Shown: positions 22,059 to 64,000 of the stretch, one piece after another
Layout: each line of letters begins with the position of its first letter
Position numbering within the stretch: position 1 is the first letter of the stretch
Source: Tenacibaculum aquimarinum
GTDB lineage: Bacteria; Bacteroidota; Bacteroidia; Flavobacteriales; Flavobacteriaceae
DNA: 64,000 bases
Assembly: GCF_022478115.1 (NCBI RefSeq)
Contig: NZ_JAKGSC010000001.1
Coordinates: 1,054,001-1,118,000, forward strand
Direction: 5' to 3'
Notes under the pieces: model-generated
The model's database searches: none
What the model saw: only the letters and a program-made list of their open reading frames with translations
What the model was told of the DNA's origin: nothing
Position numbers and translations under genes: made by a program

Positions 22059-22117
22059 GGTATATTGGAAAAATTGATTAGAAAACAAAAAAATGATTTT
22101 TCTTTTTAGAAGCTATT

Positions 22118-22206
22118 TCCTGCTTTCCGTTATATCTTTTTTTGAGAAAGACAAAAAAAGGATGTCACTACAATCAGGGCTAAGCATACTTGCCAATTAT
22201 TAGAAA
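22118..22206 (+). repeat. Dispersed intergenic repeat, copy 2
   Basis: TGCTTTCCGTTATATC, T-run, A-run, GGATGTCACTACAATC, CTAAGCATACTTGCCAA, TTAGAAAACTT. It abuts the 3' end of arfB and lies upstream of the riboswitch. The 21814-22208 gap thus holds this repeat, the riboswitch and the 73-bp palindrome. Confidence 0.75.
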
Positions 22207-40554: not shown

Positions 40555-41379
40555 TTAAAGTTGAGAATTCAACCAATTTACAACATCTTCTAGCATTTCT
40601 TCTTTACATAAATCGTTATGCAATTCATGATAACCACCTTTGTATAACTTTAATGTTGCTTTTTCAGATTTATTGGCAAAAGATTCGGTTCCTTTATAAT
40701 CAATAATTTTATCATCTGTTCCATGTAATAAGTACATTGGAGTTTCTAGCTTAGATGCGTTTTCAATTGCCCAATCTGCAGCATCAAAAAATGATAAAGA
40801 AAAATTAGGACTCACTTTATCATGTACTAAAGGATCGTTTGTGTATAAATCTACTTCTTCTTGAACTCGTGAAATTCCACTTGCATCTAATTCACTTGGT
40901 AGAGTTATAGATGGTGCAATTTTTTGCATAATCTTTCCAATAGATAATTTCCAGGCAGGAGGCGTAAAAGCCAGTTTTAACATTGGACTTGTAGCAATAA
41001 CACCTTTTAACGTATGGTTTTCTCTAAGAGTATAGTTTATAACCGCGTTTCCGCCCATAGAATGTCCGTATAAAAAGACAGGTTTATTTGGGTGTAGTTT
41101 TTGTGCTTTTTTTATCACTTCAGAAATACTTTCTAAGACAGCTTTAAAGCTAGGATTATGGCCTCTTTTACCTGAAGTTTTTCCATGTCCAAAATGATCA
41201 AAAGAAACTACAGAGAATTCTTTTTCTATCAATTTTGGAACTACAGAAGTTGTATACCTTGTAGAGTGTTCTCCCATTCCGTGCACTAAAACCACAACAG
41301 CTTTAGTGTTTTTTGGTTGCCAATATTGGCCAAAAAAATCTGTTTTGTAAATGTTGAAAGTAAACTCTTTGTGTGTCAT
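40555..41379 (-). CDS. Alpha/beta hydrolase, monoacylglycerol-lipase-like
   Basis: 274 residues, no signal peptide. The fold is complete: VLVHGMGEHSTRY (oxyanion region near 31), DHFGHGKTSGKRG, the nucleophile elbow GHSMGG (S107), an acid in HGTDDKIIDYKG and the His in KGGYHELHND. This Serine aminopeptidase/lysophospholipase (Hydrolase_4) type often cleaves monoacylglycerol or lysophospholipid. The natural substrate is unknown. Its promoter is divergent from that of the TonB receptor; it is the first gene of the tilS-dsbD run. Confidence 0.92.
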   Translation of the reverse strand: MTHKEFTFNIYKTDFFGQYWQPKNTKAVVVLVHGMGEHSTRYTTSVVPKLIEKEFSVVSFDHFGHGKTSGKRGHNPSFKAVLESISEVIKKAQKLHPNKPVFLYGHSMGGNAVINYTLRENHTLKGVIATSPMLKLAFTPPAWKLSIGKIMQKIAPSITLPSELDASGISRVQEEVDLYTNDPLVHDKVSPNFSLSFFDAADWAIENASKLETPMYLLHGTDDKIIDYKGTESFANKSEKATLKLYKGGYHELHNDLCKEEMLEDVVNWLNSQL

Positions 41380-44469: not shown

Positions 44470-45774
44470 CTATTTTGAATTTAGCAAAACGTATTTCATA
44501 GCTTTTGCCTTTAATAAACATTCTTCGTACTCTTTTTCTGGTGTAGATTTGGCTGTAATTGCTCCACCAACAGAATAGGAAACGTACTTTTTCTCTTCGT
44601 TATAAAGTATACTTCTAATAACTACATTAAAATCAAAATCTCCAGCAGGAGTAAAGTAACCTACAGTTCCAGAATATAAACCACGTTTGGTTTCTTCTAA
44701 GTTTTCAATAATTTTCATTGCAGAAACTTTTGGAGCACCTGTCATGCTTCCCATCGGGAAAGTTTCTTTAATAATATCTACAGGATGTGTTGTGTGTTCA
44801 ACATCAGATACTATTGTAGAAACCATTTGGTGTACTTGTTTAAATGTATACACTTTACACAATTCTTCAACCTTTACAGAACCTTTTACAGCAGTTTTAG
44901 ATAGGTCATTTCTTACCAAATCTACTATCATTACGTTTTCTGCTTGTTCTTTTTTATCATGTGCCAAATCAAAAGCAATTTTAGCATCTTCAACTTTATT
45001 AATTAACCTTTTCGCGGTTCCTTTTATAGGTTGAGAGATAACTTTTGTTCCTTCCTTTTTAATATATCTTTCTGGCGTTGCCGATAATAAATATTGATTT
45101 TCTAGCTTTAAGAAAGTTGCAAACGGAGGTTCGGAAATTTCGTTTAAATGCTGAAAAACTTCAAACGGATTAATACTTGTGTTTTCTGCATAAAACTCTT
45201 GACAAAAATTAGCTTCATAAATATCTCCTCTATGAATATGAGCAAGCATTTTTTCTACTTTTTTATGATATTCATCTTTATGAATACGAAGCTTTATTTT
45301 GATGTCTGAATTTGATTCTTGAATTATTGGATTGCTATACTGTATTATTTCTTCAAAATCTTCCTCAATTTCATCATCAATCATTCTTAAATAATGAAAT
45401 TCAACAGTATTTCCTTTTATAAAAATTAATTTTTGAGGTTGAAAAAAATACAAATCAGAGAAGTCTAGGCCATCAAAATTTGAAGAAGAAAGTTGTTCTA
45501 TATCATTTTTAACATCGTAAGAGATATAACCAAAAATATAATCTTTTGTGTACGATTGATATTCTTTCAATTTTTCGAAAGCACCATGATAATCGGTTTT
45601 AATAGAGGTGAATTCTTCAACAGCCAAACAACCATCAAACGAAGAATATTGCTGCTGGTAATTATTAGAATCTAACCAAACTATAGTTTCAAATTGTTGC
45701 GACCATTGGAATAAGCGTTGCTTAAATTCCGAAGGAGAATCAATTGAAAATGTTTGTATGGTTCTAATTGGCAT
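44470..45774 (-). CDS. pabB: Aminodeoxychorismate synthase component I
   Basis: 434 residues. The C-terminal chorismate-binding domain (about 180-430) has the PIKGTAKR motif with the lysine typical of PabB rather than the PIAGT of TrpE, then VMIVDLVRNDLSK and SMTGAPKVSAMKIIENLE. The N-terminal part is the usual PabB/TrpE regulatory-like domain. It makes 4-amino-4-deoxychorismate for folate synthesis. The -7 box TATTTTTG lies five bases before the ATG, which suggests a leaderless message. The partner glutaminase is not in this window. Confidence 0.92.
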   Translation of the reverse strand: MPIRTIQTFSIDSPSEFKQRLFQWSQQFETIVWLDSNNYQQQYSSFDGCLAVEEFTSIKTDYHGAFEKLKEYQSYTKDYIFGYISYDVKNDIEQLSSSNFDGLDFSDLYFFQPQKLIFIKGNTVEFHYLRMIDDEIEEDFEEIIQYSNPIIQESNSDIKIKLRIHKDEYHKKVEKMLAHIHRGDIYEANFCQEFYAENTSINPFEVFQHLNEISEPPFATFLKLENQYLLSATPERYIKKEGTKVISQPIKGTAKRLINKVEDAKIAFDLAHDKKEQAENVMIVDLVRNDLSKTAVKGSVKVEELCKVYTFKQVHQMVSTIVSDVEHTTHPVDIIKETFPMGSMTGAPKVSAMKIIENLEETKRGLYSGTVGYFTPAGDFDFNVVIRSILYNEEKKYVSYSVGGAITAKSTPEKEYEECLLKAKAMKYVLLNSK

Positions 45775-45836: not shown

Positions 45837-46159
45837 TTAATTTGTTTCTTCTATTTCAATCTTTACCATTTTTTTTGTTTCTCCTTTAGAAGCATCAATT
45901 TTAAAATGAGCTTTACCATGAACACCTTCGCCTTTTAAAGCTTCAACTTCCTTTAATAAATTCATATTTGGTTGTTTAAACACCATCTTTAAGATATGTA
46001 GTTGTAATTGTAGTAATTGCCATTTCACTATTATCAACTTTAACTTCAATACGAACTTCTTCTTTATTTATGTGTGAATTATCAGAAGTATGTCCTCCTA
46101 AAATTGGAGCAATTACTGAACCGATTAAACAGGTTAATTTAATTAAAATATTCATTGAT
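45837..46159 (-). pseudogene. Decayed duplicate of the 3' end of hppA
   Basis: On the minus strand this matches the last part of hppA (47586-47928): the end reads [21 protein letters not shown] against [21 protein letters not shown], and the DNA further up (CAGAAGTATGTCCTCC through ATTCATTGATGGTCCAGAAG) is nearly identical to hppA. In between, the reading frame is broken, so the fragment cannot encode a membrane domain. It begins abruptly inside the hppA-like sequence at the junction with the pxpC remnant. It is divergent from hppA (not a recent copy) and is not expected to be expressed. Confidence 0.85.
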
Positions 46160-60366: not shown

Positions 60367-60397
60367 TTTGTTTATATCAATTTAATCTTTAGATTTG
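60367..60397 (+). promoter_or_regulatory. Promoter of the pheA leader
   Basis: TTTG at 60367-60370 and TAGATTTG at 60390-60397 are a -33/-7 pair separated by 19 bases, the ideal Bacteroidota spacing. The predicted mRNA starts near 60403, about 18 bases before the leader ATG. Confidence 0.8.
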
Positions 60398-60420
60398 TTG
60401 CTCAAACAGAGAGAATTAAG

Positions 60421-60501
60421 ATGTTAAATACTACTTGGACACGTTTCTATTTTTACTTTTATTTTTACAATAAGAGGAGAGGCTTTGTATCATGTTGTTA
60501 A
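60421..60501 (+). CDS. Attenuator leader peptide with eight alternating Phe and Tyr codons
   Basis: A 26-codon frame from ATG 60421 to TAA 60499-60501, translating as MLNTTWTR, then FYFYFYFY (residues 9-16), then NKRRGFVSCC. A run of four Phe and four Tyr codons is very unlikely by chance, and the frame lies between the promoter and a terminator directly ahead of pheA. In classical attenuation, scarcity of charged tRNA-Phe or tRNA-Tyr would stall a ribosome on these codons and expose bases 60479-60486. It is too short to be a protein gene in its own right. Ribosome-binding signals are weak, as is normal here. Confidence 0.88.
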   Translation: MLNTTWTRFYFYFYFYNKRRGFVSCC

Positions 60502-60527
60502 AACAATAAAAAAATATATAAAGTCTC
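60479..60527 (+). promoter_or_regulatory. Antiterminator pairing of the pheA attenuator
   Basis: GAGGCTTT (60479-60486, end of the leader frame) can pair with AAAGTCTC (60520-60527, one G-U). AAAGTCTC is also the 5' arm of the terminator. The GAGGCTTT of the terminator 3' arm (60539-60546) is an exact copy of the upstream element, so the two hairpins exclude each other. Confidence 0.75.
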
Positions 60528-60552
60528 GAATTTACTTCGAGGCTTTTTTTTT
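60520..60552 (+). terminator. Attenuator terminator ahead of pheA
   Basis: AAAGTCTCGAA pairs with TTCGAGGCTTT (one wobble) around TTTAC, followed by nine T, ending eight bases before the pheA ATG at 60561. A terminator here, with no gene upstream on this strand other than the leader frame, can only act as a regulator. Confidence 0.9.
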
Positions 60553-60560
60553 GATTAAAA

Positions 60561-61432: not shown

Positions 61433-62575
61433 ATGATACAACCAGCTAAAAGATTAGATACAGTTCAAGAATACTATTTCTCTAAAAAATTAAGAGAAGT
61501 ACGTGGTTTAGTAGCTGCAGGAAAACCAATTATTAATATGGGAATTGGGTCTCCAGATTTACAACCACCGGCAAAAGTTTTAGAAGCAATTTCTGATAGT
61601 TTGGGAGATGCAAGCGCACATAAATATCAATCATATCAGGGTTTACCGGAATTAAGAAATGCAATTTCAACTTTTTATAAAAACAAATTTTCTGTAGAAT
61701 CTAATCCGGAAAATGAGGTTTTACCATTAATGGGAAGTAAGGAAGGAATTATGCATATTTCTATGGCTTTTTTAAATGAAGGCGATAAAGTTTTAATTCC
61801 TAATCCAGGTTATCCAACATATACTTCAGTTACAAAATTAGTAGGAGCAGAACCACTTTTTTATAATTTAAGTTCAGAAAGTAATTGGCAGCCAAATTTT
61901 GAGGAATTAGAAAGTCAAGATTTAGAAAATGTAAAAATTATGTGGGTAAATTATCCGCATATGCCAACAGGAACAAATGCAACATTAGCAACGTTTAAAA
62001 AACTGGTTGCCTTTGGTAAAAAGCATAACATTTTAATTATAAATGACAATCCATATAGTTTTATTTTAAATGATAAACCTATTAGTATTTTACAAGTTGA
62101 AGGCGCAAAAGACATCGCTTTAGAGTTAAATTCATTAAGTAAAACCTTTAATATGGCAGGTTGGCGCGTTGGTATGTTGTTAGGTAATTCAACGTTTATT
62201 AATGAAGTTTTAAAGGTAAAATCTAACATGGATTCAGGTATGTTTTACGGAATTCAAAAAGGAGCAATTGAAGCTTTACAACTATCTGACGATTGGTTTT
62301 TAAAGCAAAATAAAATTTACGAAGAACGAAGAAATCTAATTTGGCAATTAGCCGATAAATTAGAAGCAACGTATAATAAGAATTCAACAGGATTATTTGT
62401 TTGGGCAAAAATTCCTGCAGGAAAAAAATCAGAAGAAGTTACAGATTCGGTATTATATAATAACGATATTTTTATAACACCAGGAACTATTTTTGGTTCA
62501 CGAGGAGAAGGATATATTCGTTTTTCTTTATGTGTAACAACAGCTGTAATTAAAGAAGCAATATCAAGATTATAG
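61433..62575 (+). CDS. Class I aminotransferase, aromatic or aspartate type
   Basis: 380 residues, PLP-dependent fold type I. NMGIGSPDLQPPAKVLEAI, the PNPGYPTYTSV substrate loop and LNSLSKTFNMAGWRVGMLLG with the PLP lysine (in SLSK, about 239) are clear. No signal peptide. In this position between pheA and tyrA it most likely transaminates phenylpyruvate and 4-hydroxyphenylpyruvate (or prephenate), the last step of Phe and Tyr synthesis; sequence alone would also allow other amino acids. It starts 44 bases after pheA and ends two bases before tyrA. Confidence 0.92.
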   Translation: MIQPAKRLDTVQEYYFSKKLREVRGLVAAGKPIINMGIGSPDLQPPAKVLEAISDSLGDASAHKYQSYQGLPELRNAISTFYKNKFSVESNPENEVLPLMGSKEGIMHISMAFLNEGDKVLIPNPGYPTYTSVTKLVGAEPLFYNLSSESNWQPNFEELESQDLENVKIMWVNYPHMPTGTNATLATFKKLVAFGKKHNILIINDNPYSFILNDKPISILQVEGAKDIALELNSLSKTFNMAGWRVGMLLGNSTFINEVLKVKSNMDSGMFYGIQKGAIEALQLSDDWFLKQNKIYEERRNLIWQLADKLEATYNKNSTGLFVWAKIPAGKKSEEVTDSVLYNNDIFITPGTIFGSRGEGYIRFSLCVTTAVIKEAISRL

Positions 62576-62577
62576 GT

Positions 62578-63429
62578 ATGAAAAACATTTACTTAATTGG
62601 TGTTGGTTTAATTGGCGGTAGTTTTGCCATCGATATAAAAAAGAACAATCCAGAAACTGTAATTTACGGAATAGATGCCAGTGAAGATCATTTAGATAAA
62701 GCGATAGCATTAGGTGTAATTCAAGAAAAAGCAGTTTTAGATGATATTGAAAAAGCAGACTTGGTAATTGTGTCAATTCCGGTAGATGCAACGGTAAAAT
62801 TATTACCAATTATTTTAGATAAAATATCAGATAATGGTTTAGTAGTAGACGCAGGATCCACAAAAGAAGCAATTTGTAAAGCGGTTGAACATCATCCTAG
62901 AAGAAGAAATTATTTAGCATGTCATCCAATTGCAGGAACAGAAAATTCTGGACCAACAGCAGCCATTTCTGGCTTATACGTTGGTAAAACGAATATTATT
63001 TGCGAAGTTGAAAAGACAACTTTTAAATTACAAGAGAAAGCTTTAAAGCTTTTTACCGACATTGGAATGCGTATTAGATACATGGATGCAGTTTCGCATG
63101 ATAAACATATTGCCTATGTTTCGCACTTATCTCACATAAGCGCATTTATGTTAGGTAAAACAGTTATAGATAAAGAAAGAAATGAGCGCGATATTTTTGA
63201 TATGGCAGGTTCAGGTTTTGCCTCAACAGTTCGTTTGGCAAAAAGTAGTCCAGCAATGTGGACACCAATTTTTGAGCAGAATAAAGAAAATGTAATAGAA
63301 ACATTAGAAGAATACATCAATAATTTAGAACATTTTAAAAAATTGATGCAACAAGATAATTTCTCCGAAATTTTTAACGAAATGGAGAATACAAATTATA
63401 TAAAACAAATATTAAACGGCATAAATTAA
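62578..63429 (+). CDS. tyrA: Prephenate dehydrogenase
   Basis: 283 residues. NAD-binding IGVGLIGGSFAIDI at residues 6-19, the DAGSTKEAICKAV motif, the substrate loop CHPIAGTENSGP, and the helical dimerisation part with HDKHIAYVSHLSHISAFML are typical of TyrA. No chorismate mutase or ACT domain is attached. It oxidatively decarboxylates prephenate to 4-hydroxyphenylpyruvate for tyrosine. It begins two bases after the aminotransferase gene and is followed, 20 bases on, by the DAHP synthase gene. Confidence 0.96.
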   Translation: MKNIYLIGVGLIGGSFAIDIKKNNPETVIYGIDASEDHLDKAIALGVIQEKAVLDDIEKADLVIVSIPVDATVKLLPIILDKISDNGLVVDAGSTKEAICKAVEHHPRRRNYLACHPIAGTENSGPTAAISGLYVGKTNIICEVEKTTFKLQEKALKLFTDIGMRIRYMDAVSHDKHIAYVSHLSHISAFMLGKTVIDKERNERDIFDMAGSGFASTVRLAKSSPAMWTPIFEQNKENVIETLEEYINNLEHFKKLMQQDNFSEIFNEMENTNYIKQILNGIN

Positions 63430-63449: not shown

Positions 63450-64000
63450 ATGAAGAATACAAAAGAATTAAGAACATGGTTGGACGATATGAAATTAGAT
63501 CATCCACTAGTAATAGCAGGGCCTTGTAGTGCAGAAACCGAAGAGCAGGTTTTAAAAATTGCACACGAATTAAAAGATTCTGATGTAAATTATTTCCGTG
63601 CAGGAATTTGGAAACCAAGAACAAGACCAGGAAACTTTGAAGGAGTTGGTGCGTTAGGTTTAAAATGGTTACAAAAAGTAAAAGCAGAAACAGGAATGAA
63701 AACCTGTACAGAAGTTGCAAATACAGCACACGTAAAGTTAGCTTTAGAGCACGATATCGATTTATTGTGGATTGGTGCACGTACAGCAGTTTCTCCTTTT
63801 ATTATGCAAGAATTAGCAGACGCTTTACACGGTACAGACAAAATTGTATTGGTTAAAAACCCAATAAACCCAGATTTAGCTTTATGGTTAGGCGGTATTG
63901 AAAGATTATACACTGCAGATATTAAAAATTTAGGAGCAATTCACAGAGGTTTTTCTACGTATGAAAAAACTAAATATAGAAATACTCCAGAATGGCAAAT
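63450..64000 (+). CDS. DAHP synthase (type I-beta), probably fused to chorismate mutase; 3' end cut by window edge
   Basis: 183 residues of the N-terminal part are visible, beginning MKNTKELRTWLDDM. The KDO8P/DAHP synthase barrel is marked by HPLVIAGPCSAETEEQ, YFRAGIWKPRTRPGNFEGVG, LDLL-like DIDLLWIGARTAVSPF, and LVKNPINPDLALWLGGIER. The enzyme condenses phosphoenolpyruvate and erythrose-4-phosphate, the first step of the shikimate pathway. In Bacteroidota the homolog usually carries a C-terminal AroQ chorismate mutase, which would supply the missing mutase of this operon; that part lies beyond the window and is inferred. Confidence 0.93.
   Translation, partial: MKNTKELRTWLDDMKLDHPLVIAGPCSAETEEQVLKIAHELKDSDVNYFRAGIWKPRTRPGNFEGVGALGLKWLQKVKAETGMKTCTEVANTAHVKLALEHDIDLLWIGARTAVSPFIMQELADALHGTDKIVLVKNPINPDLALWLGGIERLYTADIKNLGAIHRGFSTYEKTKYRNTPEWQ

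Follow-up and report, generated by a model that had tools for sequence, protein, structure and literature searches.

A predicted ribosome-mediated attenuator with a Phe/Tyr leader peptide ahead of the pheA operon of Tenacibaculum aquimarinum and its relatives

Results

The pheA locus

The window, that is, the whole 64,000-nucleotide stretch of Tenacibaculum aquimarinum DNA that was analyzed, ends in four same-strand genes of aromatic amino acid metabolism, preceded by a short reading frame and by overlapping RNA structure elements (Table 1). The genome measures 2.83 Mb, and the closest named relatives of its pheA belong, among the matches listed, to Polaribacter (family Flavobacteriaceae). Aminotransferase, tyrA, and DAHP synthase genes followed pheA on the same strand at each of the 75 related loci for which 3 kb or more of the downstream region was available, and their order was seen in the 14 complete rows. 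A second DAHP synthase was not found in the genome, from which the type II family PF01474 is absent; the other PF00793 match is presumably KdsA, judging from its ORF. Elsewhere in the window, the minus strand carries a gene resembling a chorismate-binding enzyme (pabB/trpE-like; 44470-45774, with a weak PF04715 match inside) and a Flavo-1 RNA (22112-22185; RF01705, 73.3 bits), an RNA whose function stayed unclear according to the section of PMC9723704 that mentions it.

Table 1. Features of the pheA leader and operon (positions within the window)
Feature	Position	Strand	Basis
Putative Bacteroidota-type promoter: TTTG (60367-60370), 19 bases, TAGATTTG (60390-60397)	60367-60397	+	Sequence; loci versus shuffles
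Leader peptide ORF, MLNTTWTRFYFYFYFYNKRRGFVSCC, with TAA stop (60499-60501)	60421-60501	+	Sequence; family conservation
Trp codon in the leader frame (residue 6), perhaps also regulatory	60436-60438	+	TGG frame bias; family leaders
Eight Phe/Tyr codons, FYFYFYFY (residues 9-16), putative regulatory codons	60445-60468	+	In-frame excess; family leaders
Segment 2, antiterminator 5′ arm (GAGGCTTTGTAT)	60479-60490	+	Fold of 60469-60530; local MFE at family loci
Small predicted hairpin within the antiterminator loop, spanning the stop codon	60493-60508	+	Fold
Antiterminator 3′ arm (ATATAAAGTCTC), overlapping the terminator 5′ arm	60516-60527	+	Folds; partner swaps
Segment 3, terminator 5′ arm (AAAGTCTCGAA)	60520-60530	+	Hairpin scan; covariation
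Segment 4, terminator 3′ arm (TTCGAGGCTTT)	60536-60546	+	Hairpin scan; covariation
Nine-T tract of the terminator	60544-60552	+	Sequence
pheA, prephenate dehydratase, 275 aa	60561-61388	+	NCBIfam, E 7e-55, 186 bits, below the cut-off of 219
PLP-dependent aminotransferase	61433-62575	+	Family models, below cut-offs
tyrA, prephenate dehydrogenase	62578-63429	+	NCBIfam PRK08507, 382.7 bits, above the cut-off of 295
DAHP synthase with C-terminal chorismate mutase part, 360 aa, extending past the window	63450-64000	+	Models, below cut-offs

The preliminary description of this DNA had listed a leader ORF with FYFYFYFY at residues 9-16, which was recovered base for base, as well as a promoter with -33 and -7 elements 19 bases apart and a terminator whose nine T end eight bases before pheA, both of which lie where it had placed them. 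Its two 8-base pairing elements, GAGGCTTT (60479-60486) and AAAGTCTC (60520-60527), are also present, but the antiterminator to which they belong is longer than described, extending over 12 bp. A T-box or metabolite riboswitch reading of the leader was rejected, Rfam having no match of that kind there.

Conservation of the leader and its architecture

A family set of 110 pheA loci was assembled from the best 30 of 268 matching genomes and the best 80 of 164 contig matches. These loci are near relatives: 106 of 109 were distinct in sequence, some of them still representing the same genome twice. The genera covered included Polaribacter, Tenacibaculum, Algibacter, Flavivirga, Wocania, Lutibacter, Kordia, Formosa, Xanthomarina, Gelidibacter, Flavobacterium, Flagellimonas, Oceanihabitans, Bizionia, and Lacinutrix. 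An F/Y-rich leader followed by a terminator was found at 109 of the 110 loci, the remaining one (L103) having only 150 bases upstream, so the search for conserved aromatic short frames in relatives that the preliminary description had proposed gave a clear answer in its favor.

Full architecture was defined as an aromatic leader ORF, a terminator, a competing antiterminator, and the right geometry between them. All 109 usable family loci passed, whereas none of 327 shuffled regions did. A leader-like frame by itself turned up in 34 of these shuffles and in 9 of the 340 made from the class set described below. Nine of ten further family loci passed the test as run; at the tenth (L290), the unrestricted scan picked another frame first, and the locus passed once the scan was limited to 250 bases. 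When twelve other residue sets were substituted at the same loci, at most 3 of 109 family loci and at most 3 of 68 class loci passed. One of the 44 other ORF starts in the window (120 aa or more) also passed, its hairpin of -5.3 kcal/mol lying antisense to a gene, and single hits therefore require comparison. Two further candidates in the window were dismissed as false positives, one at 41194-41289 and the other a Thr-rich frame at 45976-46023.

For the wider class, 295 genomes were drawn, 78 of which had a match; 68 upstream regions (28 loci and 40 stretches) were read, two of the 78 being already in the family set and eight not included. A leader was present in 48 of the 68, a terminator in 46, and the full architecture in 44, versus 0 of 340 shuffled regions; 24 failed. 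No leader was found within the 276 upstream bases available for L213. Seven of the 68 belong to the own family and all of these passed, which leaves 37 of 61 passing outside it. Two loci from other families of the class (L239 and L243) carry two aromatic-rich frames in tandem ahead of pheA. At L207 to L211, where a further ORF on the same strand shortly precedes pheA, the search gave no aromatic leader; one may lie upstream of that preceding gene instead. Beyond the class, 4 of 21 loci passed (L299, L303, L304, and L305), with the pheA genes most like that of T. aquimarinum (42-45% identity), and no leader was found at the other 17.

Within the leaders, the aromatic codons follow the reading frame. 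Over the 106 distinct family leaders, F/Y codons made up 955 of 2341 in frame, versus 352 of 2235 and 425 of 2235 out of frame. Of the 739 ORFs with an ATG start and a length of 10-45 aa on the two strands of the window, the pheA leader alone has a stretch with at least seven F/Y residues in eight. Eight consecutive F/Y codons (TWY ×8) occurred three times in the whole genome; outside the pheA leader, the pattern fell once in a TAT repeat and once in a T-rich stretch. As a control, the reversed pattern was counted and occurred six times, so that an F/Y run is by itself no proof of a leader.

Promoter and translation start

TTTG, with at most one mismatch, was found 17-21 bases 5′ of TANNTTTG at 57 of 106 distinct loci (own locus included), versus 13 of 530 shuffles; the exact -7 motif was missing from the interval 4-60 bases before the ATG at 45 of the 106. 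Judging from the promoter motif, transcription would start at about 60403. The ribosome would then initiate at 60421 without a Shine-Dalgarno site, trailing RNA polymerase. A Shine-Dalgarno-like motif preceded only 2 of 106 family leaders, and position -3 was occupied by A in 76% of them and position -6 in 75%, in agreement with the Kozak-like translation starts reported for F. johnsoniae in the pertinent part of PMC6847099.

Terminator and antiterminator

The terminator (60520-60530 with 60536-60546) comprises 11 bp with a predicted energy of -12.2 kcal/mol. Scanning of the own locus gave two sites versus a shuffle mean of 0.1, the second being the identical inverted repeat on the opposite strand. 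A predicted intrinsic terminator was located between leader and pheA at all 109 family loci. Following alignment of 39 diverse rows, changes on both sides were seen at 7 of 11 pairs, in 34 cells, with 99.2% of cells remaining paired. None of 500 shuffles reached all three values, and sliding the partner by 1-3 columns left at most 58.7% of cells paired.

Since the MAFFT alignment shifts segment 2 by one column between clades, covariation was counted for the terminator only, and the antiterminator was tested by partner swapping. Segment 2 paired with its own segment 3 at a mean of -10.96 kcal/mol, versus -8.43 kcal/mol for swapped partners, and in 37 of 39 cases its own segment 3 paired at least as well as the median foreign one. 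The paired segments differ by clade, mostly as CGAGAC/GTCTCG, CGGGAC/GTCCCG, CGGAAC/GTTCCG, and GGGATT/AATCCC; G-U pairing occurs in some cases (CGGGAC with GTTCCG) and a mismatch in one (L062). Compensatory stem changes, the other comparison suggested in the preliminary description, were thus detected, the terminator covarying and the antiterminator arms matching the terminator arm of their own locus.

In T. aquimarinum, the antiterminator (60479-60490 with 60516-60527) forms 12 bp, and the fold containing it was predicted at -14.0 kcal/mol versus -12.2 kcal/mol for the terminator hairpin. The antiterminator was part of the local MFE structure at 109 of 109 family loci (mean z -3.9; below -2 at 98 of 109). 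In a simpler test, which scored how well the terminator arm complements the spacer relative to shuffled spacers, the value fell below 0.05 at 88% of the 109. By these predicted folds, the two structures would exclude each other through the shared segment 3, as had been proposed.

In equilibrium folds computed for the ribosome-free leader, the terminator prevailed at 104 of 109 loci, the antiterminator being favored at the other 5, and antitermination must therefore depend on timing. Segment 2 was mostly predicted to pair with the leader coding region in these folds (with the run at 60 loci and with sequence before the run at 34), which would resemble the 1:2 helix of classical attenuators. When folding extended from near the 5′ end to segment 3 only, the antiterminator was present at 85 of 109 loci and absent at 24. 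The full leader of T. aquimarinum showed no unusual stability (z -1.43).

Position of the codons relative to the switch

A footprint model was used in which the 3′ edge of the ribosome lies 12 bases beyond the P-site codon; edges of 10 and 14 bases were also run. The antiterminator of the own leader would survive a stall that placed Trp-6, or any of the codons for residues 9-16, in the A site; it became weaker one codon past the run and was lost two codons past. The second Phe codon, at residue 22, is situated beyond this switch point and would not act. Across the 109 family loci, the +12 edge left every run codon permissive and the stop codon permissive in no case, and the last permissive A-site codon was situated 0-3 codons beyond the final F/Y of the run. 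The corresponding range over the 109 loci was 1-4 codons after the run with the +10 edge, and one before to two after with the +14 edge, at which 99.7% of run codons were permissive. Among the class loci, permissive codons ended between three before and six after the run, mostly one to three after. The proposal that a stall on the Phe/Tyr codons would free 60479, and that a ribosome at the stop codon would cover it, therefore holds in the model.

Trp codons in the aromatic leaders

A Trp codon was found in 78 of the 106 distinct family leaders and was absent from 28. TGG occurred 78 times in frame, whereas the two other frames gave counts of 2 and 4. At the position three residues ahead of the run, 85 of 105 leaders carried W, Y, or F (57, 15, and 13, respectively), as if the three were interchangeable there. 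Trp enrichment as a class-wide rule was rejected, the excess being weak (14 in frame versus 5 and 11) among 41 class leaders that were chosen by F/Y alone and include a few family loci.

Leaders ahead of other amino acid operons

The same genome carries a His leader, MTFIQAHHHHFYNCTRAI, ahead of hisG (L112), a Trp leader, MNKQQNISWWWNSLN, ahead of trpE (L139), and an Ile/Val leader, MKNRIINIISIIVFVIFLQG, ahead of ilvD (L164). For comparison, 20 genomes from the own genus and the order were searched per gene family. The full architecture was present at 16 of 16 hisG loci. At trpE, represented by 14 strong PF04715 matches after exclusion of 17 weak ones, a leader with two or three Trp residues was found at 14 of 14 loci and the full architecture at 8; at the own trpE locus, no antiterminator was found by the code. 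For ilvD, the leader was seen at 9 of 13 loci and the full architecture at 8, a count that leaves out L162, with 293 upstream bases, and L171, which is a fragment of the gene. Tandem pairs of short frames were observed ahead of ilvD (Ile/Val-rich; L157, L158, and L161) and ahead of trpE (each containing WWW; L128).

Thr/Ile-rich short frames ending in TITL stand ahead of thrA in T. aquimarinum (L272) and four relatives (L275, L276, L280, and L283). GGG follows the stop codon in five of five (CCCTTTAAGGG in the own copy, which has a GTG start only). No U-tract terminator was seen in the stretches inspected from these five genomes, and a Thr leader of the same design was therefore left out of the claim; the thrA frames are possibly another kind of attenuation.

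Comparison with Rfam families and the E. coli leader

The E. coli pheL-pheA system (Rfam RF01859, Phe_leader) shares with the present locus a leader with control codons before pheA, mutually exclusive antiterminator and terminator, and the geometry from codon to switch. E. coli pheL passed the same code, with its last permissive codon three past the run. It differs in its Phe-only peptide, whereas the T. aquimarinum leader alternates Phe and Tyr and the family leaders often add Trp. Membership in RF01859 was rejected (28.6 bits versus a gathering threshold of 55; E 0.0077), and our guess is that the likeness to the E. coli leader reflects convergence.

RF01692 (Bacteroid-trp), which derives from a survey published in 2010 (PMC2864571, in the part concerned), is likewise a leader-peptide element and from the same phylum. 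It matched the trpE leader of T. aquimarinum (51 bits; cut-off 49). It differs from the pheA leader in operon and codons (WWW), and no RF01692 match was found at the own pheA locus.

Discussion

Conservation, covariation, and the geometry of the modeled footprint together make it very probable that the region ahead of pheA is a ribosome-mediated transcription attenuator of the operon encoding prephenate dehydratase, the aminotransferase, TyrA, and DAHP synthase/chorismate mutase. The steps of stalling, termination, and response to the supply of Phe and Tyr, and perhaps Trp, are inferred from the sequence. With ample charged tRNA-Phe and tRNA-Tyr, the ribosome would reach the stop codon and cover segment 2 (60479-60490), whereupon the terminator (60520-60546) and its U tract would end the transcript. 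If either tRNA ran short, the ribosome would stall at 60445-60468, and perhaps also at the Trp codon at 60436; segment 2 would remain free, would pair with segment 3 once this had been made, and polymerase would continue into pheA.

Other explanations account for parts of these observations. The end of the hairpin lies only 14 bases from pheA in T. aquimarinum, as might be expected if the structures governed access to the pheA start codon instead of termination. Such translational attenuation has, however, no need of a U-tract hairpin, which is present at 109 of 109 loci; the detector requires the U tract, yet 0 of 327 shuffled regions pass the whole test. The distance from the hairpin to the pheA match, moreover, ranges from 5 to 239 bases, and we regard control of translation as very unlikely. 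That the ORF is conserved across genera would also suit a functional small peptide beside an incidental terminator. Against this, the parts of the leader outside the aromatic run differ greatly in sequence and length from genus to genus, members of the class have little in common beyond the aromatic codons, and what stays constant is the presence of these codons and their spacing from the antiterminator, so that a peptide function is less likely still. An A+T-rich genome, in which F/Y codons are composed of T, A, and C and the reversed control pattern turns up six times, could in principle produce an F/Y frame next to an ordinary terminator by chance. This we consider the least probable of all, close to negligible, given the shuffled controls (0 of 327 and 0 of 340), the in-frame excess of F/Y codons, the near failure of other AT-rich residue sets, and the conservation found in relatives.

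A further reading refines the attenuator rather than opposing it, namely that the aromatic leader senses Trp, Phe, and Tyr, with all three codon types regulatory. Its starting point is that no DAHP synthase other than that of the operon was found in the genome. The frame bias of TGG, the preference for W, Y, or F three residues before the run, and the footprint model, in which a stall on the Trp codon keeps the antiterminator open, all speak for it. Leaders lacking Trp in the family, the weak excess outside it, and the separate Trp leader already standing ahead of trpE in the same genome speak against it, and we consider it plausible while stopping a little short of calling it probable. The original view of a leader sensing Phe and Tyr is supported as far as the F/Y run is concerned, and may have to be widened to Trp, at least in the Flavobacteriaceae. 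The E. coli thr and ilv leaders, each of which reads more than one amino acid, are alike in this respect and differ in the pathway served.

Leader-peptide attenuation had been called little described in Bacteroidota, a statement that needs qualification. An article of 2010, in the passage concerned, knew of no leader-peptide system outside Proteobacteria and Actinobacteria before adding Firmicutes (PMC2965389). RF01692 is one precedent; another is a 2021 study of F. psychrophilum, whose section on the subject reports strong clues for leader-peptide attenuation upstream of amino acid operons and names 5′ elements of pheA and hisG among those found in other genera (PMC9723704). From gene position and taxon, the pheA element in that section is very likely the same as ours. 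It concerns the same gene and the same bacterial family, and the section gives neither peptide nor codons nor antiterminator (PMC9723704). Among the matches listed from the open-licence literature, no description of the anatomy of a pheA attenuator in Bacteroidota was found. The kind of attenuator and the existence of a pheA element are already known; codon content, switch geometry, covariation, class-wide spread, and the Trp codon are new as far as the literature search shows. A survey of attenuation by Lopatovskaya et al. from 2010 may extend to Bacteroidetes.

Attenuation of this type needs a ribosome that follows RNA polymerase closely. Conserved in Flavobacteriaceae and at many loci of the class, in bacteria whose leaders are almost free of Shine-Dalgarno sites, the predicted attenuator provides a defined site at which the coupling of transcription and translation in Bacteroidota can be tested, and the leaders offer codon-specific sensors for this phylum. 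The presence of Phe and Tyr, and possibly Trp, in one peptide suggests that a single leader is able to serve a branched pathway. Tentatively, and at slightly less than even odds, we propose that Bacteroidota may possess a general layer of ribosome-paced attenuation, comprising aromatic, His, Trp, Ile/Val, and in some form Thr leaders that nearly lack Shine-Dalgarno sites; such a layer would imply close coupling, and its aromatic member would integrate Trp, Phe, and Tyr supply for the only DAHP synthase.
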